Assembly: GCA_947167935.1 (NCBI GenBank)
Contig: CAMVJU010000003.1
Span: forward strand, 86,534 to 150,533
Length of the DNA stretch: 64,000 nt
Direction: 5' to 3'
Source: an uncultured Prevotellaceae bacterium
GTDB lineage: Bacteria; Bacteroidota; Bacteroidia; Bacteroidales; Bacteroidaceae
Each line of letters starts with the position of its first letter. Position 1 is the first letter of the stretch. Made by a program: the position numbers and the translations under genes. Under the pieces are notes generated by a model, which saw only the letters and a list, made by a program, of their open reading frames with translations, searched no databases and was not told the origin of the DNA. Positions 9,338 to 54,451 of the stretch are shown piece after piece.

Positions 9338-9378
9338 CTTCGCCTACCTTTGTTCAATTGCATAAAATTATTCTTATC

Positions 9379-11844
9379 ATGATGAAATATTATCTCTTAC
9401 CATTGGCATTGCTGCTGACCACGACGGTTGCAGCTCAAGAGAAGACGGAAATCACCGAGTTTAATCTGGCTGGGCCTTTCGCTGTGAGTCAGCCCTTCGC
9501 TGTTGATACAGTCAACGTGGGTGGCAAGCAGTTTGACGAGACATCGCTGCTTGAGGCGTTGCCTCATGATGCCGTCTCCACCACAACTTGGCAGGCAGGT
9601 TTGTTACCTTCACTTACCGAGTCGAAGAGTGTGGGCGTGCTTAGCTTCTTCCTTAACAACAGCGATTTCGTGAAGGGCACCATCAATGTGGAAGGCCCTT
9701 CGAACTATAAGCTTTTCATCGACGGCAAGGAGGCCGGTGCCGATTTGAAGTTGGCACCTGAACACCATACGCTGGCTGTGAAATTCCTGGCACAGCCCAG
9801 CGACAGCGATAGCATCCGCGTTACTATCGATGCCAACCGCCTCGTCGTGCCGACTTTGGATAAGGCGCATCCCTATATGGTGCACGACCTGACTGACGGA
9901 CGACGTGTTCGCGGCATCAGTCTCTCTGCCGATGGACTCTATGCTTTTGTAAGCTACCAGACCACTGAGCGAGGCGGACAGAGTCGCTGGGAGTACGAGC
10001 TGCGCGATGTGAAGACGCAGCGCATCATTAGCCGTCCTATGCAGAGCATCCGCTGGATGCCTCGCACGTGCGCATATATAGAAGAGGTGTGGGAGGACGG
10101 AAAGCGCATGCTTTACAAGGTGGAGCCTTTGACGGGACTGCGTAGTATTTTTGCTGCCGGTGTGCCGAAGGGTGGCTATTCCGTCAGTCCTACGGAGGAT
10201 TATCTCATCATTACTGCTGAGGAAGAGGGACCAAAGGAAGACGAGGAAGTGTTCGAGGTGGTGGAGATGGACGACCGCCAGCCCGGTTGGCGTGACCGCA
10301 ACTACTTGATGAAGTTCGACTTGGCCAGCGGTATTGCCCAGCGCATCACCTTTGGCACGAAGGGTGAGCATCTCTACTCCATCTCGACCGATGGCAGACA
10401 GTTGCTCGTTGTCTCTTCCTACAGCCGTCTGGCAAAGCGCCCTACGGAGGTACAGGATTATTATCTACTTGATGTTCAGACGTTAAAGGCTGATACGTTG
10501 ATGCAATGCGTTGGCTTCTTGGGTGGGGCACAGTTCTCGCCCGATGGCAAGCAATTGCTCTTCCAAGGAACCCCCGAGGCTTTTGACCGCATAGGCTGTC
10601 AGTTGCCCGCCAATGTCACGCCGAGTATGACCGAGAACGAACTGTTCCTCTATGACCTTGCCTCAAAGCAGGTGACACCGTTGACCAAGGACTTTGACCC
10701 TTCCATTGAGAACGTAGACTGGTCGTGGGCCGATGGTCTCATCTATTTCTCTGCCGAAGACCGCGACTATGTGAACCTTTTCCGCCTCAATCCAGCGACG
10801 GGTCACATTGATATGCTGCTTTTGCCTGGCGACTATGCCTACCGCTGGGACTTGGCAGCACATGCTCCCACGCTTGCCTACTTGTCGTATAAGACGATGG
10901 AGCCTGCCTCGGCCTACATCACCAATCTCCATCCAAAGAATTCAAAACTCATCAAGACACAAGTCGTCTTCGATGGTAAGACTGCACTCGGCGATGCCCA
11001 GTTGGGCACCTGCCAGGACTGGAACTTTAAAAATAGCAACGGCGATATGGTCTATGGCCGCCTCTATCTGCCAGCCGACTTCGATGCCACGAAGAAATAT
11101 CCGCTCATTGTCTATTACTACGGCGGTTGCTCGCCTGTGAGCCGTTATTTTGAGTCGCCCTACGCTCCGCAGATGTGGAACTCGCTGGGCTATGTGGCCT
11201 ACATCCTGCAGCCCAGTGGCGCTACGGGCTTTGGTCAGGAGTGGGCTTCCAGACATGTGAATACGGCGGGTGGCGCTGCCAAGGGTGGCTCGCCTGCTGG
11301 AGACATTATCGAGGGTGTGAAGCAGCTGTGCGCCGAGCATCCTTTCATCAATGCGGAGAAGATAGGCTGTATGGGTGCCAGCTATGGTGGCTTTATGACG
11401 CAGTATTTGCAGACGCAGACCGATATCTTCGCCTGTGCCGTCAGTCATGCAGGCATAGCCAATCACACCAGCTATTGGGGTGAGGGTTATTGGGGCTATA
11501 ACTATAGTGAAGTCAGTATGGCCAACAGCTATCCGTGGAGTCACCGCGATTTGTACGTAGACCATAGTCCGCTGTTCAATGCCGACAAGATTCACACACC
11601 GTTGCTCCTCCTGCATGGCAACGACGACACCAATGTACCGCTTATCGAAAGCCTGCAGATGTTCACGGCTCTGAAGCTCTTGGGTCGTGAGGTCGCACTT
11701 GTCGAGGTGGAGGGACAGAATCACCACATTACCGACTATGGCAAGCGTGAGAAATGGCTGGCCACTCAGATGGCTTGGTTCCAGCGCTGGCTGAAGGACG
11801 ATCCCTCGTGGTGGAATGCCCTTTACCCAAAGAAACATTTATAA
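9379..11844 (+). CDS. Secreted S9-family prolyl oligopeptidase (DPP-IV-like)
   Basis: This is a serine peptidase of about 821 residues with a signal peptide. I chose the ATG pair at 9379/9382 ('MMKYYLLPLALLLTTTVAAQ') over the TTG at 9358, because it gives a clean signal sequence and a TACCTTTG box lies at 9345-9352. An N-terminal beta-propeller is followed by an alpha/beta hydrolase domain with the catalytic Ser in 'GCMGASYGGFMTQY', Asp in 'LHGNDDTNVPL' and His in 'GQNHHI'. S9 enzymes of this type remove dipeptides or tripeptides after proline, and in Bacteroidota they act in the periplasm on peptides from dietary protein. Specificity cannot be fixed from sequence. Confidence 0.88.
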   Translation: MMKYYLLPLALLLTTTVAAQEKTEITEFNLAGPFAVSQPFAVDTVNVGGKQFDETSLLEALPHDAVSTTTWQAGLLPSLTESKSVGVLSFFLNNSDFVKGTINVEGPSNYKLFIDGKEAGADLKLAPEHHTLAVKFLAQPSDSDSIRVTIDANRLVVPTLDKAHPYMVHDLTDGRRVRGISLSADGLYAFVSYQTTERGGQSRWEYELRDVKTQRIISRPMQSIRWMPRTCAYIEEVWEDGKRMLYKVEPLTGLRSIFAAGVPKGGYSVSPTEDYLIITAEEEGPKEDEEVFEVVEMDDRQPGWRDRNYLMKFDLASGIAQRITFGTKGEHLYSISTDGRQLLVVSSYSRLAKRPTEVQDYYLLDVQTLKADTLMQCVGFLGGAQFSPDGKQLLFQGTPEAFDRIGCQLPANVTPSMTENELFLYDLASKQVTPLTKDFDPSIENVDWSWADGLIYFSAEDRDYVNLFRLNPATGHIDMLLLPGDYAYRWDLAAHAPTLAYLSYKTMEPASAYITNLHPKNSKLIKTQVVFDGKTALGDAQLGTCQDWNFKNSNGDMVYGRLYLPADFDATKKYPLIVYYYGGCSPVSRYFESPYAPQMWNSLGYVAYILQPSGATGFGQEWASRHVNTAGGAAKGGSPAGDIIEGVKQLCAEHPFINAEKIGCMGASYGGFMTQYLQTQTDIFACAVSHAGIANHTSYWGEGYWGYNYSEVSMANSYPWSHRDLYVDHSPLFNADKIHTPLLLLHGNDDTNVPLIESLQMFTALKLLGREVALVEVEGQNHHITDYGKREKWLATQMAWFQRWLKDDPSWWNALYPKKHL

Positions 11845-11893: not shown

Positions 11894-12916
11894 ATGAAAA
11901 TTAACATGTGCCAATGGGTGGCTAAGGTTATCCAAAGGAAGGAAGTGCTGGCTATGCCGGTGATGACGCATCCGGGAATTGAGATGAACGGTCACACTGT
12001 GCGTGAGGCAGTCTGTGATGGGAGTATCCATGCTGAGGCCGTTGTTGCTCTCACTAAGAAATATCCCAGCGTGGCGGCCTGCACTATTATGGATCTGACC
12101 GTTGAGGCTGAGGCTTTCGGTGCCCCGATTGTATTCCATGACGATGCCGTGCCTGCAGTAAGCGGCCGTCTGCTACATAGTGTCGAAGACATCAACTGCT
12201 TACAAGTACCATCGCTCCACGCGGGCCGTGTTCCCGAGTATCTGAAAGCCAATCTCCTTGCAGCTCACGCATTACAGAGGGGAGGGGAGGTGCTACGCCC
12301 GTTGTTCTCAGGCTGCATCGGCCCGTTCTCATTGGCGGGCAGGCTCTATGACCTTTCAGATTTGATGATGCTGATCTATGAGCAGCCGCAAGCTGCCCAT
12401 ACACTGCTGAAAAAGTGCACTCGGTTTATCGCCAAGTATTGTGAGGCGCTGAAGCTGACGGGTGCCAATGGCGTACTGATGGCAGAGCCCGCAGCTGGCC
12501 TCTTGTCTAACGATGATTGCCAGACATTCTCATCGCAGTATGTCAGGCAAATTGTAGAGCAGGTGCAAGATGAAACGTTCATGGTCATTTTGCACAACTG
12601 TGGCAATACAGGCCACTGTACTAAGGCAATGGTTGCGACGGGCGCCGCAGCCTACCACTTCGGCAATAAATGCAGCATGGAGGAGGTCATCGCTGACGTG
12701 CCGCCTACGGCATTGGCTATGGGCAACATCGACCCTGTCACCGTCTTTAAAGGCGGTACACCCGAGCTGATGCGTTACGATGTGCTCGACCTTCTGGGAA
12801 AGATGAAAGACCACCCCAACTTCATTCTGAGTAGTGGCTGCGATACGCCACCCCACACACCCGAGGCCAACATCGATGCCTTCTTCACTAGTCTTAAGCA
12901 GTTTAATAACCAGTAG
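11894..12916 (+). CDS. MtaA/CmuA-type cobamide methyltransferase (UroD superfamily)
   Basis: This 340-residue UroD-fold protein resembles MtaA/MtbA/CmuA methyltransferases, which move a methyl group between a corrinoid protein and a thiol. The zinc motif typical of the thiol-methylating class is visible: 'LHNCGNTGH' near residue 236 and 'SSGCDTPPH' near 315. The start at 11894 gives the usual length. ORF-track starts at 11816 and 11858 overlap or abut the peptidase gene and add residues without family support. It lies 20 nt upstream of a free MetH reactivation domain and near the corrinoid fusion gene. The thiol acceptor here could be homocysteine rather than coenzyme M, which is an inference from those neighbours. 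Confidence 0.8.
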   Translation: MKINMCQWVAKVIQRKEVLAMPVMTHPGIEMNGHTVREAVCDGSIHAEAVVALTKKYPSVAACTIMDLTVEAEAFGAPIVFHDDAVPAVSGRLLHSVEDINCLQVPSLHAGRVPEYLKANLLAAHALQRGGEVLRPLFSGCIGPFSLAGRLYDLSDLMMLIYEQPQAAHTLLKKCTRFIAKYCEALKLTGANGVLMAEPAAGLLSNDDCQTFSSQYVRQIVEQVQDETFMVILHNCGNTGHCTKAMVATGAAAYHFGNKCSMEEVIADVPPTALAMGNIDPVTVFKGGTPELMRYDVLDLLGKMKDHPNFILSSGCDTPPHTPEANIDAFFTSLKQFNNQ

Positions 12917-12936
12917 ATTTAGCCCCACCTAAGCCA

Positions 12937-13581
12937 ATGACCCTCAAACAGTTGTCCTTCAAAGACTTGGCCGTCACCCTTGCCGATGTGTACGAGCAGA
13001 TGGGCTATGGCGATGCTATGCCTGATGAGCAGACACAATGCGAGACCCAAGCTGTAGTAGATGAGGTGCGACACTGGTTGAGGCCGCAGTTTTGCTTTTT
13101 CGTCAGTCGCGACCTGCCTGCCTTCCGCATGGGAAAAATCATTGAGCAGCAGTTGCGAGGCAGCGAGGCCTATGCTCTCTTCATCTGCACAGCTGGAATG
13201 GAATACGAAGCCTGGCAGCAGCGCCTGAAGGAGCAGGATGACATGGTGCGTGTCTTCATTGTCGATGCGTTGGGCAGCGTTATTGCTGAAAAGTGCGCTG
13301 ATGTGATGGAACAGCACTTGCAGCAGAGCATCGACAAGTTGGGCTGGCATCACACCAACCGTTTCTCTCCCGGCTATTGCGGCTGGGACGTGAGCGAGCA
13401 GCAGTTGCTCTTTCCATTGTTCGAGGAGAAAACCTGTGGTGTCCGCCTCAACAACAGCTCACTCATGGTTCCCATTAAGAGTGTCAGCGGCATTATCGGC
13501 CTGGGCGAAAAAGTCCGCAGGCTTGACTACACCTGTGGACTATGTGACATGAAACAGTGTTATAAGCGTCGGAAGAGGTAA
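12937..13581 (+). CDS. Free-standing MetH activation-domain-like protein
   Basis: This is a 214-residue homologue of the C-terminal, AdoMet-binding reactivation domain of cobalamin-dependent methionine synthase. It has 'RFSPGYCGWDVSEQQLLF', which corresponds to the RxSPGY motif that contacts AdoMet, and 'LNNSSLMVPIKSVSGIIG', the usual downstream segment. In MetH this domain reductively methylates oxidised Co(II) corrinoid. As a separate protein it would reactivate a corrinoid partner in trans, and the obvious partner is the convergent fusion gene 12 nt away. The C-terminus has 'CGLCDMKQC', a cysteine cluster that could bind a metal or Fe-S centre. I do not claim which. Confidence 0.78.
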   Translation: MTLKQLSFKDLAVTLADVYEQMGYGDAMPDEQTQCETQAVVDEVRHWLRPQFCFFVSRDLPAFRMGKIIEQQLRGSEAYALFICTAGMEYEAWQQRLKEQDDMVRVFIVDALGSVIAEKCADVMEQHLQQSIDKLGWHHTNRFSPGYCGWDVSEQQLLFPLFEEKTCGVRLNNSSLMVPIKSVSGIIGLGEKVRRLDYTCGLCDMKQCYKRRKR

Positions 13582-13582
13582 T

Positions 13583-13614
13583 ATCTCACCTCTCACCTCT
13601 CACTTCTCACCTCT
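13583..13614. repeat. TCACCTC heptamer tract between convergent genes, supplying the fusion gene's 3' end
   Basis: Four TCACCTC-type units fill the space between the activation-domain gene and the convergent fusion gene. The last codons of the fusion gene ('EVRSER' and stop) are encoded by the repeat itself. Confidence 0.8.
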
Positions 13615-16433
13615 AATAACTGCTTGGCAACAGTGACGGCTGAGTTGGCATTGTCGCTATAGCCATCGGCGCCAATCTCATCGGCAAAACCCTGTGTCAC
13701 AGGCGCACCGCCCACCATGACCTTCACTGTTTTACGCAGGTTGGCAGCTTCCAAGGCACTGATAACCTCCTTCATATAGCCCATCGTCGTAGTGAGCAGA
13801 GCACTCATGCAGAGAATATCGGCCTTATGTTCCTTGACGGCCTCGATGAACTTGTCGGCGGAGACGTCAATGCCGATATTAATAACCTCGAAGCCGCAGC
13901 CTTCCAGCATTGACGCCACGAGATTCTTGCCAATGTCGTGTAAGTCTCCCTTTACCGTGCCGATGACCACCTTGCCTAATGATGTTCTCGTCGTGCCAGC
14001 CATCAGCGGCTGCAACTCCTGCAGGGCGGCTTTCATAGCGCGTCCAGCCATGAGCAGCTGTGGCACGAAGGCCTTGCCCTCCTGGAACTGCCGACCTATC
14101 TCAGACATAGCGCCAATCATCTGCTCGTTGATGAGTGCTTGCGGCTCCTTGCCTGCTGTGATGGCCTCCTTGGTAGCTGCTACAGCGGCGGCGCTGTCGC
14201 CAGAGAGGATAGAGGAGAAGATTGACTCTCCCTCTTGTTTCTCTTTGTGAGAGAGGGGAGATGTCGCTCCATCCGTCAGTTCATTGCGATGATTCTGCCC
14301 ACTTGGGATTACAGGCAAGGGCTGGAGAGAGGTGTGCTGAGGTTGTAAAGGGGAGAGTCGGATTCCCTTCACTGGCTCGATAGCCTTAGCCATCATGGCG
14401 ATATGTTTATCGTTGGTGCCGCAGCAACCGCCGACAATGTTCAGATGGTGGCCTTCCAGCAGGGGCCACAGGTCTTTTAATAGGCTCTCGGGTGTCTTCG
14501 TGTAGTGGCCTTTGGCATCGGGCAAGCCTGCGTTGGGGTAGAAGCTGACGCGTGTACCAAACTGAGCCAATTCCTTGACGAGTGGCGCCATTTGTGTCAC
14601 GTCGGTCACGCAGTTGATGCCGATAGAGTAGATGTGAGAGGTGAGGGGCGAGAGGTGAGAGAGGAATTCAAGGATATTCTGCCCCAGCATGTTGTGACCG
14701 TCGGGTGTTGCCACCGAGAAGCTGAGCATCAGAGGCAACTGTGGGGCTACCTTACGGGCGGCCTCGATGGCCACGCGGGCATTCTCCACGTCGAAGATGG
14801 TCTCGATAAGCAGGGCGTTGACGCCGCCATCAGCCAACGCCTGTATCTGCTCCTTGTAGGCTGAGCCCAACTGTTCCTTCGATAATGGTTCGCTGCTGGT
14901 GGCGACAGATATAGTGCGGTTGGTGGGACCGATGCTGCCAACCACGAATCGGGGCTTTTCCGGCGAGGAAAATTCGTCGGCGCATTGGCGGGCAAGGCGA
15001 GCGGCAGTGAGGTTGATCTCACGTGCAAAATCCTGTAGCCCGTAGTCGGCCAAGGAGATGCGCTGTGCGTTGAACGTGTTCGTTTCGATGATGTCAGCAC
15101 CGGCATCCAGATATTTCTTGTGGATGCTGCTGATGACAGACGGCGCCGTCAGTACCAGCACGTCGTTGCAGCCCTTCAGGTCAATGGGATGGCTCGCGAA
15201 TCGTGTGCCTCTATAGTCCTTCTCCTGCAGACCGAAGTGCTGTATCATCGTGCCCATTCCGCCGTCGAGGAGAAGGAGGCCCACTTCTTGCCCATCTCCA
15301 AGGGAGGGGTGCGTGTTTTCTTCTTCCTGTTGCTCAATAGTTTGGATGATTTCTTCTATTCTGCGGTTGGCTTTTGTTTTTTCTACGATCTCCATCGCCT
15401 CCTCCACCTCCTGCTCGTTGTGGAAGTCCATCTCGATGTGGACGCCGTCGGTGCCGATGGCTTCGAGCAATGGGCGGAGTTCGTCGAGTTTCACCCAGCA
15501 GGCCATGACGCTCTTCCCTGCATTGAGGATGCGGCGGTAGAGGTCGTACCACTTCGGGCTACCACCTTGTGGCTCGCCTACGCCGGGCGTCCATTGGATG
15601 GCATCTAGCTCGTCAATCTCCAGTAGGGCGTCGAGGTGGTGCATGGCGCCCACGCCGTCGAGGTGATAGAGGGTATAGGGAATCTTCTGGCATTGCTCGC
15701 GAATGAAGGGCTGTACGAAGCGGCGATAGTCGTCCACGCTGATCATCGTCGAGATGTCGCTTTGCAATTTCGTCATTTTCCCAGGTGCCCATGACGAGAA
15801 ATAACAGAAGGCCATCTCGTCGCCTTCGCGGATGATGTCGTAGAGCTCGTCGAACACGCGGAAGTAGATGTCGTTGATTTGTTGCAGTTGTCGTTCCAAC
15901 AGTTCGGGCTGCATCACCGTGTCCATCAATACGCGGTCTGTTCCCTTCAAGGCGGCCAGCACATCAAGACCCTCCATTAGGTCAGGCATTCCTACGTAAT
16001 AATGTCCTTGCGCCTTGCGCTTGCAGGCGTGTAGCAAATCTTTATGTAGCAGCCAGTTGGGATGGTTGGGGTTAAAGACGATGTTATCAGAGAATTGAGG
16101 GTCGGGATGAATCCAGATGGTGTCCTCGCCGCCCTCGAATACGCCTCCGAGAATAGCGGCCAAAGAGCCTGGACCCAACTGCGTGTTCGCAACAGGCAGG
16201 ATGTCGGCCTTCAGACAGGAGTGTGCTACGTACCAGTCGAGGTACTCGGCACGCCATTCAGGATCAAACCATCGCTGGTTCAGGTCTTTATAGGGCTTTG
16301 GCTGGGGCACATCGGCATGTGGCTTAACGCCCTGCTGGAAGTGCTCCCACATATTGATGATGATGCCCTTGTGGTGCCACCAGTCGACGTATCGCCGTTT
16401 CGTTTCTTCAAGATTAGTTTTCCAAGTGTTCAT
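13593..16433 (-). CDS. UroD-fold, homocysteine S-methyltransferase and corrinoid-module fusion (MetH-like)
   Basis: This is a 946-residue single chain. I start it at 16433 ('MNTWKTNLEE') because a promoter lies just upstream; the ORF-track start adds 38 unlikely residues. Residues about 1-365 are a UroD-superfamily methyltransferase of the 'YHLDGVGAMHHLDALL' type, which lacks the Cys zinc site of MtaA. About 384-690 is a homocysteine methyltransferase with zinc cysteines in 'GINC' and 'GGCCGT'. About 735-940 is a corrinoid module with a helical cap and the cobalt-ligand motif 'DLHDIGKN'. The folate-binding domain of MetH is missing. Inferred activity: methyl transfer from an unknown substrate through cobalamin to homocysteine, giving methionine. 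Both linkers and the C-terminus consist of repeat-like sequence, and a TCACCTC insertion lies inside the homocysteine domain (14633-14666). A frame error joining genes is possible but unlikely, since all domains are intact in one frame. Confidence 0.85.
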   Translation of the reverse strand: MNTWKTNLEETKRRYVDWWHHKGIIINMWEHFQQGVKPHADVPQPKPYKDLNQRWFDPEWRAEYLDWYVAHSCLKADILPVANTQLGPGSLAAILGGVFEGGEDTIWIHPDPQFSDNIVFNPNHPNWLLHKDLLHACKRKAQGHYYVGMPDLMEGLDVLAALKGTDRVLMDTVMQPELLERQLQQINDIYFRVFDELYDIIREGDEMAFCYFSSWAPGKMTKLQSDISTMISVDDYRRFVQPFIREQCQKIPYTLYHLDGVGAMHHLDALLEIDELDAIQWTPGVGEPQGGSPKWYDLYRRILNAGKSVMACWVKLDELRPLLEAIGTDGVHIEMDFHNEQEVEEAMEIVEKTKANRRIEEIIQTIEQQEEENTHPSLGDGQEVGLLLLDGGMGTMIQHFGLQEKDYRGTRFASHPIDLKGCNDVLVLTAPSVISSIHKKYLDAGADIIETNTFNAQRISLADYGLQDFAREINLTAARLARQCADEFSSPEKPRFVVGSIGPTNRTISVATSSEPLSKEQLGSAYKEQIQALADGGVNALLIETIFDVENARVAIEAARKVAPQLPLMLSFSVATPDGHNMLGQNILEFLSHLSPLTSHIYSIGINCVTDVTQMAPLVKELAQFGTRVSFYPNAGLPDAKGHYTKTPESLLKDLWPLLEGHHLNIVGGCCGTNDKHIAMMAKAIEPVKGIRLSPLQPQHTSLQPLPVIPSGQNHRNELTDGATSPLSHKEKQEGESIFSSILSGDSAAAVAATKEAITAGKEPQALINEQMIGAMSEIGRQFQEGKAFVPQLLMAGRAMKAALQELQPLMAGTTRTSLGKVVIGTVKGDLHDIGKNLVASMLEGCGFEVINIGIDVSADKFIEAVKEHKADILCMSALLTTTMGYMKEVISALEAANLRKTVKVMVGGAPVTQGFADEIGADGYSDNANSAVTVAKQLLEVRSER

Positions 16434-20144: not shown

Positions 20145-23100
20145 TTACTTTTTTGTTTTAATGACTACGGTTTCACCACGATGGATATAGATGCCCGGCT
20201 GTATGGGTCGGCGACCTATCTTGAAGCCCTGCAGGGTGTACCATTCGGTGTCATCGTCGGCAGAAACGCTGACAGTATGTATGCCCTGCGAGACTTTGTC
20301 CAAGTCTAACACGTATGGCTGTTCCAGTGTTCCGTAGGCACCGTCGCTGACAAAGTATTTCTCGTTCTCTATTACGTACTCCTGGCCATTGTGATAGACA
20401 CGCAGCTCGATGGTGGCATCCTTGTCATCAGCCGACGAACCCATGACGGTGAGGAAGTAGTAGCCGCCGCTGAATCCTATGGCTCCGCGGCACTCGCCAT
20501 TGATAAAGGCTCCTACCTCGGCATCCTCAATGCGCTCGTTGTTTTTCTCCACGACGGTAATGAATGCCATATTGTCGGGGAACTGGCTGTCATCGACCGG
20601 AGTGTAGTGAGAGGTGAGGGGCGAGGGGCGAGAGGACAACCTGCGGCCGTGGGCAGTACCGGCAAATGTTCGCGGATAGTGGAACGTCTTGGCGGTTGCC
20701 GCCTTCGACTCGTAGATGTAGCCCTCGCCAGGCACAATGCTCTCCAAGATTCCCTCCCAGGTACCACGGCTGCCGAAGATGGCGTAGGCACGGCGGCTCT
20801 TCACCATGTCGCCCACCTCGGGCCGCAGGTCGGCAAAGGCCTCATCAAGCGACATGACGTTGCCTGACAATGTGCCAATCCAGTTGTATCCATTTCGAAT
20901 GGTCTGTGCACGCTCTGCTACGTCGATAGTTTTGCCAAAAATGTCGAGCGAGGTGTTCGACGACACCTGTACCTTATACATGTTACCGGGTTCCATGTCT
21001 GTCAGTGTTCCGTCGACCTTGCTGCCGTCGCTGGCTACCGAGGCAAAAGCCGTCTTGCCCTTGACAATCTGGAACTTCTTCAAATCCTTCGAGGCCTTAG
21101 GCAGGATATCTCTGATAGCCGTCGACTCGGGCTGCACATAGAGGGACATCCATGTCCATCCCTTGGGCAGCGAAACGGTCTGCAGCACATTGTCTGTAGA
21201 GCGGAATGCCACAGGATTGTCGTAGGTGCCGATGATAGCATCGGGTGTGTACATCAGGTTGGTGCTCTTCTCACCGTCAGGCATGGTGAGCTCCACGATG
21301 GGATAGATGATACCCGTCGTCGCATCGTACATCTTGAACGTCAGGTTACGCTGGCCAGTGCTTAGGTCGGTGGGTGCGGCACCATAGACGATCATGTCCA
21401 CATAGTAGGCATCGCGGGTGCTGACATACTTTGGACGTGCCACGCCACAGCAGAGTCCCATGTCGTCGAAGGCAGCAACCACTGACTCAGTGTATTCGCA
21501 AATCTTATCGTCGATGTACACCTGTCCCGTCAGGGTCATGTTGCTCTCATAGCGGTCTTCATCGACGGCCCATTCGGGTTCGTCGCCCTCAACGGTGATA
21601 TTGCACTGCTGTACGCGGCGGATGCCCAGATGGTCGGTAAGGTAGACATAGACCACGTACTTACCTACGGGAACCATCTTTCCTATGTAGAACTCGAGGT
21701 AGTCCTGGTCGTTCTCAATCGTTCCGATAGGCTTGTCGACGGTCATCCATGTGGGCAGACCGCTGATTTCGTAGCTCTGCGGCTGTCCTGTCCTGTTATA
21801 GATGGGAATGATGTATGAAAGCTCTTCGTTCCACTTCTTGTAGTGTGTTGTAGGAAAGAGCTGCTGGTTGCCATTCCTCCAGTCGACGCTGGCGAAGTCG
21901 GCATGGAACATCCACTCGGCTGTCTCGGAGTTGTTGCCGTGCTCGTCTTTGATAAAGTCAACCTTGGCCACGAAGTCGTTGCCATCCATCAGCGGCAGCG
22001 AGGTGTCGGGGAAGCTGAAGTAGACCTGGTCGGCAGAAACCGTGAAGTTGAACTGCGTGTCTTCCATGCGCAACCTCGTGGAGCCAGGCTTCAGGGCAGG
22101 AGCGTTGAGGGCCTGTGTCGGGGATTGACTATTGGCAATCTTCAGTTGCGAGTCTTTCTGACCGAAGTTGGCGGTAGAGAAGGTGGTTATCACAGTGCCC
22201 TGCTCGTTGCGGTTGATTTCCTCCATGGGGAAGTAGCCCACCAATCCGGGATAGCTGTTGTCCATGCGCTCGTACATACGCTTGCTGATGAGGGCTCCGT
22301 CGAGGGCAGCGCCCCAGATACGAATTTCGTCGACATCGCCCGTGAAGCGGTTGATCTCCGCATCGCCATCATAGGCACCGCCAATTGTCAGGTAGTGTGA
22401 GCTGAAGCCGGGCACGCTGGCTTCGGGCAGCACCTTCACCGCCTGTCCATCGATGTAGGCAATGGCACTGGTGCCGCGACGCACGTTGAAGGCCAGGTGA
22501 TGCCAGTTGCCGTCGCAGTAGTTATTGTCACTCAGTGTGATTTCGTTATTGGTGGTTGTCAGAATCAGCTTCCCGTCGCTGAATCCGATGACGGTATTTT
22601 CCACCGACACTAGGGTGGCAGCATCGTTGTTGTCGGCCTCATCGCCGCGGAACCACATCTCGAAGGCGAAGTTATCGGTCTTTGCAGGATTGAAGGTCGA
22701 GATGTCAACCTTCAGCGGGCTGCCCTCTTCGCCTGAGAGGTGGGCGGCGCGATTCTCGTTGTTGATATACCAGCTCTCGCTATCCATGTGCATGTGGCGC
22801 GAACGGGCCAGGTCGGTGATTTGCGTGCCGTGGCCTTCGTCCATACGCCAATAGCCCACGAGTCCTGGTGTGTAGGATGCCCGCTTCTCGAGTCGCTTCT
22901 CATAGAGTTCAGTAGCTGTCACTTCGGAGTTCCAGATAGAGAGGCCGGCAATCATTCCCGTCATGCCGTCGCCACCGATGCCCAGCTTGCCATGACTGCT
23001 GAGATCTTTTGCAATGACGTTCTCGCCCACATAGATGGGCTTTTTATCATTGGCCGTGGCATAGAGCATGGTGATGCGGTTCTCGGGATTGTCGGCATCC

Positions 23101-26100
23101 TTGCGGTCATAGTTCAGCGCCATGTATACCCATTGGTTGTCGGGAATCCTAGTATTGGTATCATAGACAGCATCTTCGTTGCCGATGCGTGCCCGCAGCA
23201 TACCGTCGTCATGGGTTGAGAGCGAAAGCAGGTTGTCGTCGGTGCCCACGCTGACGATGGTGCCGTCGCCCTGGCGGTAGAACCACAGGTCGAAGGCATA
23301 GTCATAGTTCGCCAGGTCGTACATAGCATCGGTCTCGATGCGCTTGCCGTTGAGCTGTGCTGCCACATCGGGCGCACTCGTAGCCACAGCATTGTTCAGG
23401 CCGCCCTCGATGCGGAAGTTGTCGCTCTTGCTCAGCGAGTTGCCGTTGAGCACCTCGTTGAAGCGTATGTGCATGTTGTTGCGGTTCATATAGGTCAGCC
23501 AGCCGTCCTCGGGACTTACCATGCCCAGGATCTTCGGGCCGTGGGTGTCCTGCGTCACCTCGATGATGTTGCTCTCGTAGGTCACATCGTCGTTGCCATA
23601 CTTGCCGAAGGTCTGAGCCTGCAGCTCGTAGAGGCCGTCCTCGGCAAAGGCTACCGAGTCTGCAAACTGGCTGCCTTGTGGCATGGGCTCGTAACCCATC
23701 GTGAGCAGGCTGTCGACGGTGGTCCATTGCTTGACAACGTTCCACGTGTCGGTGCCCTTGCGGCGGAAGCGCAGGCGGATGCCCTGCAGGTTTTTGTCCT
23801 GACGGTCGAGGTTGTACATCTTGGCAATGATGCCGCCATTGTCCTTCAGGTATTCCTGGTTGAGCACGGTGTGATCGACAGCCAGGTCGACATGGGCCGA
23901 CGACGGCACGAAGTGTACGCGAAGCGTCACCTTGTCGCTTTCGATGCTCGGGTCTTTCTCGGACTTCAGCTGCACAACGATGTCTTCGTAGTCAATGATG
24001 CTCGGGTCACTCTGACGTACGATGAGGGTCTTCTCGACGGTCTCGCCGCCCTTCATCTTGATGAGTCGTCCGTCCTTGCCGTTGCTCAGCACGGCCCCGT
24101 CGACCAAGAGGATAGCGCCATTGGGATTGCTGCCTTCCTTCACCTGCAGCACGTAGTTGCAGATGTCGTTGGTCTCGCTCTGGTTCGACAGCTGCAGCAC
24201 GAACTTCGCATCGCTGCCAGTAGGCACGTCGGTCAGCTCGCTGCTGCCCTTCACCTTCAGCTGCGGGTTCTCCACCTTCATCGTAGCCTCGTTGAGCTGT
24301 GTTCCCTTCTGGTAGAACTTGGTGTAGCTGGCACCCTCATACGGGTTGACGGTCTGTCCGCCACGTGTGCGGAAGATGGGGCCCCATCCTGCAGGCGACT
24401 TGTAGACATCGACCGAGAGGGCCGTGCGCACGTCGCCGTCGCTCATTGTCCATGCCACGGTACTCGTCCTCGTTGTGAGCGTGTCATTGCTATAGCCGGT
24501 GCCAGAGTTGTCGGTGTAGTTGAACAGTACATTGAAACCGGCATCATTCACCAGCGGACCATATTTATTGTCTATAGACACGGTGTGCGTGTAGCTGTGA
24601 GAGTGCGTATAGCCTTTCTTCGTCGAGTTCTCTGTTGTCTGGCTTATCTTGGTTCCACTGGCAATTGAATAGTTGTCGATGAAACAGTCATTATCATTGA
24701 AGGCAGTGAGTTTGTCTTCCTCATTATCGGCAATACGCTGTTTCCACAACCTGATCTGGTTGATGGCGTATTCCACCTCGTCTTTTGCATCCTTGCTCTC
24801 TGTGCCGTCTATCATGCGATAGCTGGGGTAGCCGTTTGCGGCAGCCATCTGATCGGAAGTCCAGTAGTCGCGGTCGCCGTTGGTGTGTCCGTACTCCTCA
24901 TCCTCAGGCGTATACTTAGTGTAGTACATCACCTTGCCAGGCACCACTGGTGTATTACTTAAATCCCAGTGGTTGCCTGTGATGTGACCTTCTTCCAACT
25001 TAGTGCGGATTATCTCTTCCCAGTTGGGTATGAGTGTGTTGAGAATATAGGCCTGCGGATAGACGAAAGTAGTTCCAAAGCTCTGACTGACGGTGATGCC
25101 GCTCTTCTCTTCAAGCTTAAAGGTGCCGTCTTCCTGCTTGAAGAGGCCGAGGATGCGGCCTTTGCTGAAGAGCAGGTTGGTGGCGCGTCCGACATAGGTG
25201 TCACCACCTTCGGGTGCGAAACTCATGGTTGCAAGGTCTATGACCATCGAGCTGGGCGTGGTCATCTGTTCGCTCACCGTGTAGGAATGGTCGTCAACTT
25301 CCGTGTCTTTGTCCGAGTAGGTGTCATAACCTGTTACCGTTTGCTGGGAGACGAACTTGAATTTCGACTTGGCCATCACCGCAAATCCCAACACCTCGCC
25401 TGAGACAATCTCCCAAGTTGGTGTTTCGCTCAAGTAGAAACCGCCGCCATCTTTTTCGCTGGAATTGTTGTAAACCTCCGTGTGAGCGTATGAGGTGAGC
25501 GTCTTTTGGGTGGCAGATGCCACAGAGGTGGAACCTGGCGGACGGCGGATCACCATGTTGACATCGTCAGGACCGCTCGTCACGAAGTTTGTGCCGGAGC
25601 CGATGCTACCCAACAAGATCAGGTCGAGCGCTTCGGTCTTTGAGTTGGGTGCCTGCCACATGGTGGTGCGTCCGTCAATTTTCACACCGATGCTGAGGTT
25701 ACGCAGGTTGCCTGCGGCCAGGTTGGGGAATCCGCCATCCCACTGATAGGCGATGTGTCCTGTGGAGTCGGGCACAACTTGGATGTTCAGGGTGGTGTAG
25801 GCCTCGCCCACCTCTACTTCCTCACCATTGATGGTGGCTTTCTCGGCAAAGATGGTAGTGGTGGCACTGGCATCGTTCATGATGGTGAACACGGCATCCC
25901 GTGGAATCTCCTTGTATTCCTTCTTGGTGTCAAGGTTGGTGTATTGTTCAGAGACGCTGATGTCGAAATCGTATAGCTTATCCTGCTGGAACAGCGGATA
26001 TTGGTAGACGTATTCATAGCCGTTCGAGGTGTATTTCACCACCTGTACAGAATCTAGGCTGTTATCAAGGTTGGTGACACCAATCTTGTGCTCGCCGAAG

Positions 26101-29100
26101 GCACCGTTCTTCATGCCTTGCTGCACAACATTGATGGTAGGATTGGAGCGATACTGTCGGATCATCTTTGCACTATACAGGTATTCCGACTTAACGTTAT
26201 CAACCACCATCGAGTCTTTCTTCATCTTTTCCTCGATGGCGTTGGTGGCATCAATCATTGGCAGGTTCTGGGCAAAGACCGGCTCATTGTCGTATTCGGT
26301 GCCGCCCACGAACTTGATGCTTTCCACCTTGTACTTCAGCGGGGGCAGCATGGCTGAGAACTCACCCGTCTTCTCATCGGTCGTGATATAAATGAAATAG
26401 GTGTCGTCGTGGTCGCCACCGGCACGGTAGGCCGTGCTCTGGATTCTGTCGGTGGCACTCTGCACGGGGATGTTCTCAGTGCCGAAGGTGCCGTCGCCGT
26501 GGCTGTCGACAATATAGTTGAACGAGCATTGCGACTCCTTGCCCAAGCTGAGCTTGATGGTGGCCTTACCCAGGCGGTTCACGCTGCGGTTGAAGCCTAC
26601 GGGCTCGTTCAGGTCGGTGAAGCCGCCGTTGATACGGCCGGTGACGTTGACCAGCGTGGAGTCGACGAAGTTGACGGTCTCGGCACGCTTGAAGTCGTAG
26701 GTCGAGCCATCGAGCGGGAACGAGGTGAACTTGTGTCCGTTCATGTAGCACTCTATCAGGTGTTTGCCGATAGGCACGGCAATCTCGAACTCGCCGTTGG
26801 CATCGCTGTACACGCCCTCTTTCGCCTGTACCAGCGAGCCGTCGATCATAAACTGGACGCTATCCACGGGAATGTTAGTGTTCAGGTAGGTCACCTTACC
26901 ACGTACGGGGAATGACGACACGTCGGTGAAGTCGTAGCTGTTGAGCGTCAGGCTGCCGTTGCCGATGAAGCCGTTGCGCGACAGGGGCGAGAACTCGTGG
27001 ATGCCGCGAGTCGGCGTGATGGTGTAGGTGGAGCCACTGCCCACGAAGGGTATGCCGCGGATGATGTACTCACCGTTCTCGTTGGTCACGGCATAGCGCG
27101 ACAGCTGGTTGTCGACGGGCACGATACTGGATGCAGAGATGTTGTTGCCCACCTTGGCATGACGGCCATTCGGCATGTCGTTGGCGTAGGATGCATCGAA
27201 GACGTAGCGGCTCAGCCCTTCGTCCAAAGGCCAGTAGAGTGCCAAGCCCTGCTCACGGCCGTTCAGCACGCGGTCGGTATAGTTGTCTTTCTCCTTGTCG
27301 GTCAATATGTGATTCCATACACGTACCTCGGCAAGGTTGCCACGGAAAGCCTCGTCAGTCTCCAGGTATTTGCAACCGCCCACAGAGAACGGCAGTGTGG
27401 TTTCACTACCAACCACCTCAGTAATCATATTGGGGAAGTAGTTCTTCTTTCCGAAATCGGTAGATAGGTTATAAGCGGTCAAGACAGTCTCCTGGGAGGT
27501 TCCATCGGGCATATACATGCAAATGCCGTTGTAGATATAGCAGCCATCGGGAATCTCACCCTTCTGATTTTCCACGAAGTGGTGTTGCTTGTCAGAGACA
27601 TGGTCACCAGTTCCTATCAGCTTGAAATTGTCATCGACCGACAACGAAATGCTCTCGCCCGAATACTGGCAGCCAACCAGCGAATAGATGCCGGAAGGAA
27701 TGGTCAGGCCTGAGTCGTACAACGATCCTGTCCATGAGTGATCAATGTACTCTACTGGCTCAGGAAGCTGTATGGTCTTTGAAAAAGCACGGTACCAGAG
27801 GTAGTGTGATGATGTGCTCCACCATCCAGCACTGACCTGTTCGTAGCCATCGGCGTACATCTTGTCATTGTTTGCGTTCTTGTCATCGCTGGTACAGAAC
27901 ACCCAGGTCTGATACTCATCGCTATAGTAGGACTCCGACCCGCCGTCATTGATAGCCGTGTCGTCCTCAATAAAGACCTTGATGGCTTTGTATTCTGATA
28001 TGATCTTTTCTGATTTCGTGATGGGTCCCGTCTTCTCATAAAGAAGTTTGTAGCCATCGCCTTGCCGGCTGCCTAAGAGAAGACGTCCGAGACCAGGAAT
28101 CTCACCAATGACGGCTCCCTCGCTGAGTCCGCCATCAGGACGCACAAACATCTGCACGGTGTAGTCCTTGTCGCTGCCGAATACCTTGGCCATCTCGGCA
28201 CTGTCTGCCTCCCATGCAATACCCGTCGAGGCGCCATCGACATACTGCGAGGCACCCTTCACCACGTTGTCATCGCCGGTATTCGAGGGACGCAGCGAGA
28301 GACGCACGTCCTCGACAGCCGAACCCGAGCCGAAGGTGACACGGCCCGAGATGACACCGCGTGCCTGACAGAAGCCCACGTCGTAGAGGGTGTTCTGCAG
28401 CGTGTTGCCGCTGTATACCTCAATCTTGTACTCGTAGTAGTAGCCTGGCTGTACGGTGTTGTCCTCGTAGGTGTAGAGTTCCGATGTGCCATTGGCAGTA
28501 TGGATGCGCATAAACTCGCTGCTGCTGTTGACATAGCGGCGCGAAAGGACGTAGGTGCTGTTTTCCGAACCTATCTGGTTGGCAGTCCACGACAGGCGCA
28601 CTGTAGCATCGTGCGTGCCCTTCGTGGCCTCAAAAGTCTTCACCTGGGAGCCGGAAAGCAGACCCGCATAGACGGCATCGCTCTCAAAATGATACTTGTC
28701 GTTGACCAGCGACAGGCGCACCTTGTACTGATAGCGCGTGGAGACGTTGGGTAGGTCACTATCGACAAACGACAGCGAGGCGCCGGCTGCAGGCTGGGCA
28801 TCGCCGGTGACGCTGCCATACTCAGTCCAGTCGCCTTCCTCGGTAGTTTTGCGCAACACCTTGAAGTTGACGGTAGCGGCCTCGGTCGGCACACGGGAAT
28901 ACTGCCAGGTGAGCTTCACTTTATCGGTCACACTGATATCCTGCTGCAGGGTGTGGATTGCCATGCTGGGAGCGGTGCTCATACCGTCGGAGATGCTGTA
29001 ACCCAGCTTGGCCAGCAGGGCGTCGTCAGGACTGTTCAACATGCCTGAGTTGATGCTCTTGCCTATCCAGTCCTTGGGCACATTGAGCACCATATACTTG

Positions 29101-30236
29101 TAGTACGCACCTGCCTGCACGCCATCGTCGGTGTAGCTCATGGAAGTGCCACTATTGTCAAGGTTGCCGCGGCGGCTCCACGACTTGCCCGACTGGATGT
29201 TGCCGCTGGCATCGGTCTCTATCCTGTAGATATAAGGTGTACACGACATATAGTTGCCGTCGGTGGGCTGCGACCACGACAGCACCGTGGTCTTGTCAAA
29301 CTGGCGGTATTCAGTCGTGATGCTTCCTGGCACGGGAACCACCTGGAACACGTTGTTCTTGTTGTAGGCACTCGATTCACTCCAGAAGTCGGCCTTCGGG
29401 TCTTTCACACCCTGACGGGCCGTGACATTCACGTCGATGCGTTTGGGATTGCCAACCGACTCGGGGATAGTGGTGTTGTAGCTCTTTGCCAGGTTTTTGT
29501 CGCAGTCGAAAGACTCCTTCACGGTCTCCTTGCTGCCGTCCTGCTTATAGAAAATGTAGGCGACGTCGTAGGTGCAGTAACGGGCGCGCACATCGTTGAC
29601 CTTGCTCGGAATGTCGTCGGGCAGCTTCGGCGTGGTGAACCTGATATTGTCGGCACCGGTGCGCTCACACGTGTATTTGCCGGCATCGATGGCATCCATG
29701 CCCAGCGTGCTGCCAATCTCGCACTCGTAGCGCAGCACCTTCGTGTACCAGTCATCGTTGTTGTGCTGGAAGTAATAGTATATCTTCCACGTGCCGCCGG
29801 CCAGTTCGGCAGGGAAGTAGAAGTCCACCTTGGCCGTCATATAGTGGTTGTCGCTGCCCCACTTCGTCAGCCAGAAGCTTTGCTCCGAGGTGCCTATCTG
29901 CTGGTCGCCCATCTGCGAGTTGGTGAACCACGCCTTGGCATTGGCCTCACAGATGTAGGCCTTCACCTCTGCCGTCTGGCTCTCATCATCGCCCTGGTTG
30001 ACATACTTCAGGTACATCAGGTCGATGGTCTTGCTACCATTCGTGGCATAGACATGACCACCCTTGGAGTAGGTGTTGCTATAGTCAAGGTCGGCGAGGA
30101 ACACCTCAAGGCACAGGTGGTCGCCCGAGGTGTAAGCATAGTACTTGCTTTCGTTGAGCACCCAGTCGCTGGCCTGGACGCGCAGTGCCGTCATAGCCAA
30201 AAGGATTGACAGCAGTAGATAGATTCTTGTCTTCAT
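20145..30236 (-). CDS. Giant (3363-residue) secreted LamG/Fn3-type surface protein with C-terminal sorting tail
   Basis: This single uninterrupted ORF of 10 kb starts with a signal peptide ('LLLSILLAMTALRVQA'). The N-terminal 650 residues contain Fn3-like beta-sandwiches. A LamG-type domain spans about 655-1030 ('FRGNLAEVRVWNH', 'LYWPLDEG'), and a carboxypeptidase-regulatory-like domain lies at about 1107-1165. Two more LamG domains lie at about 2280-2445 and 2510-2660 ('DEIRIWGAAL'), after a bacterial-Ig-like segment near 2230. The last 45 residues ('YTLQGFKIGRRP', 'PGIYIHRGE') match the tail shared by other secreted proteins here. It is probably an adhesin or glycan-binding surface protein; no catalytic motif is recognised. 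A TCACCTC tract encodes 'RPSPLTSHYTP' near residue 3205. Confidence 0.82.
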   Translation of the reverse strand: MKTRIYLLLSILLAMTALRVQASDWVLNESKYYAYTSGDHLCLEVFLADLDYSNTYSKGGHVYATNGSKTIDLMYLKYVNQGDDESQTAEVKAYICEANAKAWFTNSQMGDQQIGTSEQSFWLTKWGSDNHYMTAKVDFYFPAELAGGTWKIYYYFQHNNDDWYTKVLRYECEIGSTLGMDAIDAGKYTCERTGADNIRFTTPKLPDDIPSKVNDVRARYCTYDVAYIFYKQDGSKETVKESFDCDKNLAKSYNTTIPESVGNPKRIDVNVTARQGVKDPKADFWSESSAYNKNNVFQVVPVPGSITTEYRQFDKTTVLSWSQPTDGNYMSCTPYIYRIETDASGNIQSGKSWSRRGNLDNSGTSMSYTDDGVQAGAYYKYMVLNVPKDWIGKSINSGMLNSPDDALLAKLGYSISDGMSTAPSMAIHTLQQDISVTDKVKLTWQYSRVPTEAATVNFKVLRKTTEEGDWTEYGSVTGDAQPAAGASLSFVDSDLPNVSTRYQYKVRLSLVNDKYHFESDAVYAGLLSGSQVKTFEATKGTHDATVRLSWTANQIGSENSTYVLSRRYVNSSSEFMRIHTANGTSELYTYEDNTVQPGYYYEYKIEVYSGNTLQNTLYDVGFCQARGVISGRVTFGSGSAVEDVRLSLRPSNTGDDNVVKGASQYVDGASTGIAWEADSAEMAKVFGSDKDYTVQMFVRPDGGLSEGAVIGEIPGLGRLLLGSRQGDGYKLLYEKTGPITKSEKIISEYKAIKVFIEDDTAINDGGSESYYSDEYQTWVFCTSDDKNANNDKMYADGYEQVSAGWWSTSSHYLWYRAFSKTIQLPEPVEYIDHSWTGSLYDSGLTIPSGIYSLVGCQYSGESISLSVDDNFKLIGTGDHVSDKQHHFVENQKGEIPDGCYIYNGICMYMPDGTSQETVLTAYNLSTDFGKKNYFPNMITEVVGSETTLPFSVGGCKYLETDEAFRGNLAEVRVWNHILTDKEKDNYTDRVLNGREQGLALYWPLDEGLSRYVFDASYANDMPNGRHAKVGNNISASSIVPVDNQLSRYAVTNENGEYIIRGIPFVGSGSTYTITPTRGIHEFSPLSRNGFIGNGSLTLNSYDFTDVSSFPVRGKVTYLNTNIPVDSVQFMIDGSLVQAKEGVYSDANGEFEIAVPIGKHLIECYMNGHKFTSFPLDGSTYDFKRAETVNFVDSTLVNVTGRINGGFTDLNEPVGFNRSVNRLGKATIKLSLGKESQCSFNYIVDSHGDGTFGTENIPVQSATDRIQSTAYRAGGDHDDTYFIYITTDEKTGEFSAMLPPLKYKVESIKFVGGTEYDNEPVFAQNLPMIDATNAIEEKMKKDSMVVDNVKSEYLYSAKMIRQYRSNPTINVVQQGMKNGAFGEHKIGVTNLDNSLDSVQVVKYTSNGYEYVYQYPLFQQDKLYDFDISVSEQYTNLDTKKEYKEIPRDAVFTIMNDASATTTIFAEKATINGEEVEVGEAYTTLNIQVVPDSTGHIAYQWDGGFPNLAAGNLRNLSIGVKIDGRTTMWQAPNSKTEALDLILLGSIGSGTNFVTSGPDDVNMVIRRPPGSTSVASATQKTLTSYAHTEVYNNSSEKDGGGFYLSETPTWEIVSGEVLGFAVMAKSKFKFVSQQTVTGYDTYSDKDTEVDDHSYTVSEQMTTPSSMVIDLATMSFAPEGGDTYVGRATNLLFSKGRILGLFKQEDGTFKLEEKSGITVSQSFGTTFVYPQAYILNTLIPNWEEIIRTKLEEGHITGNHWDLSNTPVVPGKVMYYTKYTPEDEEYGHTNGDRDYWTSDQMAAANGYPSYRMIDGTESKDAKDEVEYAINQIRLWKQRIADNEEDKLTAFNDNDCFIDNYSIASGTKISQTTENSTKKGYTHSHSYTHTVSIDNKYGPLVNDAGFNVLFNYTDNSGTGYSNDTLTTRTSTVAWTMSDGDVRTALSVDVYKSPAGWGPIFRTRGGQTVNPYEGASYTKFYQKGTQLNEATMKVENPQLKVKGSSELTDVPTGSDAKFVLQLSNQSETNDICNYVLQVKEGSNPNGAILLVDGAVLSNGKDGRLIKMKGGETVEKTLIVRQSDPSIIDYEDIVVQLKSEKDPSIESDKVTLRVHFVPSSAHVDLAVDHTVLNQEYLKDNGGIIAKMYNLDRQDKNLQGIRLRFRRKGTDTWNVVKQWTTVDSLLTMGYEPMPQGSQFADSVAFAEDGLYELQAQTFGKYGNDDVTYESNIIEVTQDTHGPKILGMVSPEDGWLTYMNRNNMHIRFNEVLNGNSLSKSDNFRIEGGLNNAVATSAPDVAAQLNGKRIETDAMYDLANYDYAFDLWFYRQGDGTIVSVGTDDNLLSLSTHDDGMLRARIGNEDAVYDTNTRIPDNQWVYMALNYDRKDADNPENRITMLYATANDKKPIYVGENVIAKDLSSHGKLGIGGDGMTGMIAGLSIWNSEVTATELYEKRLEKRASYTPGLVGYWRMDEGHGTQITDLARSRHMHMDSESWYINNENRAAHLSGEEGSPLKVDISTFNPAKTDNFAFEMWFRGDEADNNDAATLVSVENTVIGFSDGKLILTTTNNEITLSDNNYCDGNWHHLAFNVRRGTSAIAYIDGQAVKVLPEASVPGFSSHYLTIGGAYDGDAEINRFTGDVDEIRIWGAALDGALISKRMYERMDNSYPGLVGYFPMEEINRNEQGTVITTFSTANFGQKDSQLKIANSQSPTQALNAPALKPGSTRLRMEDTQFNFTVSADQVYFSFPDTSLPLMDGNDFVAKVDFIKDEHGNNSETAEWMFHADFASVDWRNGNQQLFPTTHYKKWNEELSYIIPIYNRTGQPQSYEISGLPTWMTVDKPIGTIENDQDYLEFYIGKMVPVGKYVVYVYLTDHLGIRRVQQCNITVEGDEPEWAVDEDRYESNMTLTGQVYIDDKICEYTESVVAAFDDMGLCCGVARPKYVSTRDAYYVDMIVYGAAPTDLSTGQRNLTFKMYDATTGIIYPIVELTMPDGEKSTNLMYTPDAIIGTYDNPVAFRSTDNVLQTVSLPKGWTWMSLYVQPESTAIRDILPKASKDLKKFQIVKGKTAFASVASDGSKVDGTLTDMEPGNMYKVQVSSNTSLDIFGKTIDVAERAQTIRNGYNWIGTLSGNVMSLDEAFADLRPEVGDMVKSRRAYAIFGSRGTWEGILESIVPGEGYIYESKAATAKTFHYPRTFAGTAHGRRLSSRPSPLTSHYTPVDDSQFPDNMAFITVVEKNNERIEDAEVGAFINGECRGAIGFSGGYYFLTVMGSSADDKDATIELRVYHNGQEYVIENEKYFVSDGAYGTLEQPYVLDLDKVSQGIHTVSVSADDDTEWYTLQGFKIGRRPIQPGIYIHRGETVVIKTKK

Positions 30237-30261
30237 ATCTTCGTTTTTTAGTTATTGTTTC

Positions 30262-54436: not shown

Positions 54437-54451
54437 ATAGAAAATAGGGTA

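Follow-up and report, generated by a model that had tools for sequence, protein, structure and literature searches.

The window, a 64,000-nucleotide stretch of one contig from a genome bin that is 58% complete and whose closest relatives are Prevotella-like bins from the rumen, contains three neighboring genes whose products resemble enzymes of corrinoid-dependent methyl transfer (Table 1). A gene for an MtaA-like member of the URO-D superfamily forms one operon with the gene for a stand-alone activation protein of the MetH type (hereafter ACT), which begins 20 nt downstream on the same strand. The third gene encodes a fusion of a divergent UroD-fold domain (UroDN), a homocysteine S-methyltransferase (HMT) domain, and a corrinoid-binding module, and its likely start is the ATG at 16433, where the homologous N-terminus MxTWK is aligned. 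The first-pass annotation had placed an MtaA-like gene and a stand-alone activation protein beside the fusion, and both genes were found at those positions. The adjacency also holds, with 11 nt separating the stop codon of ACT from that of the fusion gene, but the two are convergent and therefore do not share an operon. Upstream of the MtaA-like gene (9358-11844, plus strand) is a protein of family F18 that by eye resembles a DPP-IV-type S9 peptidase; members of this family are also encoded upstream of the MtaA-like gene at two other loci (L021 and L042) and beside a GH141 gene at two more (L101 and L105). Elsewhere in the window, a single open frame of 3368 residues occupies 20145-30251 on the minus strand.

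Table 1. Positions in the window of the three genes and of their domains and motifs
Feature	Position	Strand	Remarks
MtaA-like URO-D superfamily methyltransferase (presumed)	11894-12916	+	PF01208, 193.6 bits; ATG at 11894, in-frame ORF open upstream to 11795
MtaA-like protein, zinc-type site HNC	12593-12601	+	H260-N-C262 (P0001 numbering)
MtaA-like protein, Cys codon of third zinc-type ligand	12839-12841	+	C342 (P0001 numbering)
ACT, stand-alone MetH-type AdoMet-binding activation protein, 214 residues	12937-13581	+	PF02965, 55.2 bits
ACT, AdoMet-binding RxxxGY-type motif	13360-13380	+	R142-F-S-P-G-Y-C148, invariant Cys included
ACT, C200-x2-C203-x4-C208	13534-13560	+	CGLCDMKQC (CxxCxxxxC); candidate Fe-S or zinc ligands with C148
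Fusion gene UroDN-HMT-corrinoid	13593-16433	-	ORF open to 16547
Corrinoid-binding module of the fusion	13635-14225	-	helical cap 14013-14225, B12-binding domain 13635-13976
HMT domain, between UroDN and the corrinoid domain	14379-15275	-	PF02574, 281.5 bits
UroDN, divergent UroD-fold domain, candidate substrate O-demethylase	15318-16433	-	no Pfam family

The MtaA-like protein has the His-Cys-Cys zinc-type site expected of MtaA, and H260, C262, and C342 are invariant across 12 homologs. Models for MtaA and CmuA matched it below their cut-offs, and its scores against the curated MtaA models NF040654 (86 versus 400 bits) and TIGR01463 (103 versus 235 bits) rule out MtaA proper, placing it in the URO-D superfamily instead, presumably as a second methyltransferase.

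In the fusion protein, both zinc cysteine motifs of the HMT domain (GINC and GGCCG) are present, and this domain is 38% identical to its counterpart in the MetH of the same genome. The corrinoid module scored 69.1 bits against PF02607 and 101.1 bits against PF02310, and its B12-binding domain carries the DxHxxG cobalamin motif as DLHDIG. A fragment of ordinary MetH was ruled out, as the fusion scored 473 bits against a TIGR02082 cut-off of 1011 bits and has no pterin-binding domain. Searches of UroDN against the sequences of solved structures returned no match, and in a profile comparison with the MtaA-like family the zinc site did not align; the assignment of UroDN to the superfamily is thus one of fold, the closest PDB folds to its model of moderate confidence (pLDDT 67.6) being UROD (1JPI, E 7e-4) and MtbA (4AY8, E 1e-3). 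Three residues of UroDN, H257, D259, and E340, do not vary among 11 homologs, the most divergent of which is 25% identical, and this invariance and the resemblance of the motif make H257-x-D259 and E340 candidate metal ligands. Among UroD-type methyltransferases, a His-Cys-Cys site goes with sulfur or selenium chemistry and a carboxylate in place of Cys with O-demethylases (PMC10418091). By this rule, the MtaA-like protein resembles an S-methyltransferase, whereas UroDN has the look of an O-demethylase.

ACT scored well above the PF02965 cut-off of 25 bits, with the match confined to C-terminal positions 112-272 of the 273-position model, and it has the AdoMet motif of this family, including the conserved Glu (E118). 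The closest PDB fold to its AlphaFold model (pLDDT 91) is 1J6R, the stand-alone protein TM0269 (E 6.6e-13, TM 0.79/0.85), and the folds of MetH activation domains in the PDB were matched as well. Over 30 aligned homologs down to 29% identity, the invariant positions are E118, N141-R142, S144-P145-G146-Y147-C148, W150, C200, C203, and C208, confirming the extra CxxCxxxxC cluster described at first pass. The last three cysteines are missing from the genome's own MetH and from conventional stand-alone activators, and the AdoMet motif itself, RFSPGYC in ACT, reads RVAFGYATCP in the former and RPAVGYPSLP in the activators of split MetH. Judged from sequence, C148, C200, C203, and C208 are probably the ligands of a metal or Fe-S site, with the chance of an Fe-S cluster in particular slightly short of even. 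No cysteine-bearing activation protein was found in the literature searched.

The distribution of the three genes was then compared across genomes. UroDN is present in 10 of 151 genomes of the family, and all 10 also have ACT and the MtaA-like gene, often unlinked (Fisher p = 6e-12 for ACT and 2e-12 for the MtaA-like gene, values that ignore shared ancestry). Its distribution is patchy, as among the ten listed genomes of the genus only two, the window's and G122, contain it. Because UroDN is encoded apart from the MtaA-ACT pair in G122 and in genera g8 and g23, the co-occurrence cannot be put down to linkage alone. A scan of contigs yielded 39 ACT loci. At 18 of them the ACT gene faces one for a UroDN protein, the same arrangement as in the window and far more than chance would give; at one further locus a symporter gene lies between ACT and the facing UroDN. 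Searching 295 genomes of the order identified UroDN relatives in nine more genomes, which belong to other families of the Bacteroidales. Both ACT and MtaA-like proteins were present in all six of these that are at least 90% complete and in one of the remaining three. In a search of the phylum, UroDN was found in 1 of 396 genomes, that of the window. The proposal that the three genes go together is thus supported across genera and families, and their co-occurrence is not confined to this strain.

The methyl donor had initially been left unspecified. The carbohydrate genes conserved around UroDN point to O-methylated sugars and suggest that the methyl group is captured by UroDN within the fusion, not by the separate MtaA-like protein. 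In relatives, UroDN is clustered with genes for a GH31 enzyme, a sodium:solute symporter (SSS), and often a GH141 enzyme. A family-distant operon (L130) has the order GH31-UroDN-SSS-MtaA-ACT with GH141 next to it, and most of this set is kept at four loci from other families (L131, L132, L134, and L135). Orthologs of the GH31 protein (E < 1e-200) occur in 9 of the 151 family genomes, namely all UroDN genomes except the 58%-complete bin of the window (p = 1e-13), and in 6 of the 295 order genomes; UroDN is present in five of these six. None of the GH31, GH141, and symporter genes adjoins the three genes inside the window, and no GH31 ortholog was found in the window genome at its 58% completeness. 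The GH141 protein of the clusters matches BT1002 at 447 bits. BT1002, the founding member of a family that also contains a xylanase, frees 2-O-Me-Xyl-α1,3-Fuc from chain A of the pectin RG-II (PMC10154630). The closest PDB match to the GH31 protein is an annotated alpha-glucosidase, followed by YicI, and with alpha-xylosidase relatives such as the latter the enzyme would be predicted to split 2-O-Me-Xyl-α1,3-Fuc. Rhamnosidases, a rhamnose mutarotase, and a Gfo/Idh/MocA oxidoreductase encoded near UroDN clusters likewise fit pectin sugars. In some relatives the neighbors are a symporter, a DHDPS family protein, GH78, and fucose isomerase, and these differences suggest that the sugar may vary.

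Related arrangements were found beside other glycoside hydrolases. In the sister genus g24, ACT and MtaA-like proteins occur without UroDN, and in all four of its genomes examined (L111, L113, L115, and L117) the MtaA-like gene adjoins a gene for a GH67 alpha-glucuronidase. Three of these four loci also encode another protein of the UroD family, which has an H-N-D site and whose gene is directly adjacent in two of them; a GH30 gene is present in L111 as well. GH67 enzymes free 4-O-methyl-glucuronate from xylan, and demethylation of this sugar is a possible function of the g24 loci. In genome G149 (L116, 3553-10722), a corrinoid-MtaA-ACT operon is followed by genes for a RhaT-type transporter, GH95, and a URO-D-family protein, perhaps representing a third methyl-sugar variant. 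The presence of the toolkit beside GH67 and GH95, further enzymes that might free methylated sugars, strengthens the general methyl-sugar reading more than the one specific to 2-O-methyl-xylose: O-demethylation of a glycan-derived methyl ether is somewhat probable, and 2-O-methyl-xylose as the particular substrate is proposed tentatively. The window also encodes a GH67 alpha-glucuronidase homolog (52478-54451, minus strand; 776.7 bits to the GH67 of g24), and its genome may encounter 4-O-methyl-glucuronate too. At other loci of g24 (L108, L109, L110, L112, and L114), ACT adjoins a threonine synthase-like gene, away from the MtaA-like gene.

Alternatively, the sugar genes could be chance or regulatory neighbors of a corrinoid system for a non-sugar donor, such as a methoxy-aromatic, methyl-sulfur, or methyl-selenium compound, since UroD-type corrinoid methyltransferases are known for aromatic ethers, thiols, selenols, and halogenated methyl compounds (PMC10418091) and the sugar neighbors differ among several rumen loci. 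This explanation is unlikely given the almost one-to-one presence of GH31 and UroDN over the 151 and 295 genomes and their adjacency across several families, and a sulfur or selenium substrate is further disfavored by the putative carboxylate-type site of UroDN.

For a methyl-sugar demethylase, the methyl acceptor is suggested by the domain composition of UroDN proteins. In a tree of UroDN, many branches of which are weak, stand-alone proteins are outermost, followed by UroDN-corrinoid fusions and then by proteins with the inserted HMT domain; no more than three label changes are needed, in agreement with one gain of the HMT domain and two losses. This insertion, together with a homocysteine methyltransferase encoded on its own in the L132 cluster, makes homocysteine the best candidate acceptor, with methionine as the product. 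The MtaA-like protein is retained even with the homocysteine domain present and thus has some other task. The intact HMT domain of the fusion, its lack of a folate domain, and the corrinoid-ACT-HMT gene triplets of Ignavibacteria-type genomes would also be expected of a folate-independent methionine synthase variant that serves mainly to make methionine, with ACT as a transplanted MetH activator and UroDN as an opportunistic source of methyl groups. However, neither the six UroDN-corrinoid fusions in the tree nor its eight stand-alone UroDN proteins have an HMT domain, and a MetH is already encoded in the window genome, making such a variant quite improbable.

The remaining component, ACT, was examined for the corrinoid protein that it serves. 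In the window genome, the separate MetH retains an activation domain of its own. Besides ACT, genomes of g8, G122, and G149 have a conventional stand-alone activator of ~300 residues with the RPAVGYPSLP motif and no terminal cysteine cluster. ACT as an activator of MetH only was therefore rejected; pairing with MetH alone, which would have spoken against the initial proposal, was thus not what was found. A system served by a Ram/RACE activase was ruled out as well, as PF14574 matched in 0 of 16 ACT genomes and did match in the control, Methanosarcina acetivorans. Distant relatives of ACT adjoin corrinoid proteins, and three of these loci also encode a homocysteine methyltransferase. ACT very probably serves a corrinoid methyl-transfer system and, from its family and gene context, we infer that it reactivates the corrinoid domain of the fusion. 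That ACT is instead a spare activator of the cellular MetH, incidentally positioned beside the fusion, would agree with the known role of PF02965 in MetH reactivation and with ACT being the only PF02965 protein found in five genomes, but is highly improbable given that the window's MetH has its own activation domain, that relatives with a conventional activator hold ACT additionally, and that ACT tracks UroDN and the MtaA-like gene and adjoins corrinoid genes in distant bacteria.

Several other gene contexts of activation proteins were observed. A conventional activation protein (about 300 amino acids) is encoded alone at L169, L170, L171, and L172, suggesting split MetH. In six operons (L049, L051, L052, L053, L057, and L058), a distant ACT gene and a corrinoid protein gene occur with two more genes, pterin-binding-like and methylene-THF-reductase-type-like. 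In genus g8 (L104, L100, L090, and L096), the MtaA-ACT pair is preceded by genes for a flavin reductase and serine hydroxymethyltransferase, possible sources of electrons or one-carbon units.

Taken together, we estimate at roughly 55% the probability that this corrinoid system demethylates an O-methylated plant-wall sugar, most likely 2-O-methyl-D-xylose from side chain A of RG-II, and passes the methyl group to homocysteine, with ACT acting in trans. Based on gene context and homology, GH141 and GH31 would free the methyl sugar and the sodium symporter would import it. UroDN would hold the ether oxygen at its carboxylate-type metal site (H257-x-D259 and E340) and pass the methyl group to Co(I) of the corrinoid domain in the same chain. 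The inserted HMT domain would then accept the methyl group to yield methionine, and the MtaA-like protein, with its S-type His-Cys-Cys site, may shuttle methyl groups between the corrinoid and another thiol. When Co(I) is oxidized to Co(II), ACT would re-methylate it in trans using AdoMet and one electron, which a metal or Fe-S site at C148/C200/C203/C208 could deliver.

Reactivation in trans by a detached domain had been put forward as a new arrangement. The detached activator as such is already known from TM0269 of Thermotoga maritima, and relatives of the window genome carry conventional ones. TM0269 reportedly acts on TM0268, a MetH lacking the reactivation domain, so that its partner is a methionine synthase. 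ACT and TM0269 share the free MetH-type activation fold and a presumed AdoMet-dependent reactivation in trans; however, the corresponding stretch of TM0269 is RISPGYGDL, with no Cys after GY, and its matched part ends four residues before the C-terminus, whereas ACT has C148 and the CxxCxxxxC cluster and travels with a UroD-type methyltransferase. The fusion combines homocysteine and corrinoid domains as MetH does, and the activation domain of MetH is homologous to ACT, but UroDN takes the place of the folate domain and activation falls to a separate protein. CmuA, a chloromethane methyltransferase, has UroD and corrinoid domains in one chain, as do the UroDN-corrinoid proteins of L048 and L026; its N-terminal domain family and its substrate are different, and in the present fusion the HMT domain is inserted between the two. 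Type 1 mlp clusters of anaerobes likewise combine MtaA-like His-Cys-Cys proteins, a corrinoid protein, and a dedicated activator with no folate methyltransferase in the cluster, but they use Ram/RACE and have been proposed to act on methyl-selenium or methyl-sulfur compounds (PMC10418091). In the present system the activator belongs to the MetH type, and the candidate capturing enzyme, with its putative O-type site, is encoded among sugar genes; nor do the genes conform to the definition of such a cluster (at least two Mlps, a corrinoid protein, and Ram/RACE on one strand), with PF14574 lacking in all 16 genomes and the genes convergent. The phenolic O-demethylases OdmB and VdmB of acetogens are also UroD-superfamily proteins that move an ether methyl group to a corrinoid protein (PMC10418091). 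Their substrates are aromatic, their activation is by Ram/RACE, and their acceptor is folate, whereas UroDN belongs to no Pfam family and is found among GH31, GH141, and a sugar-type symporter. Judged against the literature searched, novelty seems to lie in the cysteine-bearing class of ACT, in its partner, and in the sugar context.

Methyl-ether sugars are present in two major plant polysaccharides, the pectin RG-II and glucuronoxylan, and the sugar O-demethylase known from marine Bacteroidetes is an oxygen-dependent P450. The literature searched held no account of anaerobic removal of the sugar methyl groups of RG-II or glucuronoxylan and no corrinoid sugar demethylase, a gap in anaerobic sugar O-demethylation that the corrinoid route, if true, would fill. 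More broadly, and with less confidence, we suggest that Bacteroidales of the gut and rumen possess a family of O-demethylases that depend on B12, need no oxygen, and act on methylated sugars of the plant cell wall. The substrates would be 2-O-methyl-xylose from RG-II and, in a sister genus, 4-O-methyl-glucuronate from xylan, and the enzymes would be kept active by stand-alone AdoMet reactivases of a new, cysteine-bearing class. In Prevotella-like lineages, one polypeptide may convert methyl-sugar and homocysteine to sugar and methionine. Corrinoid activases would then be of two kinds, Ram/RACE and ACT, and the route would tie fiber breakdown in the rumen and gut to B12 supply and methionine synthesis.
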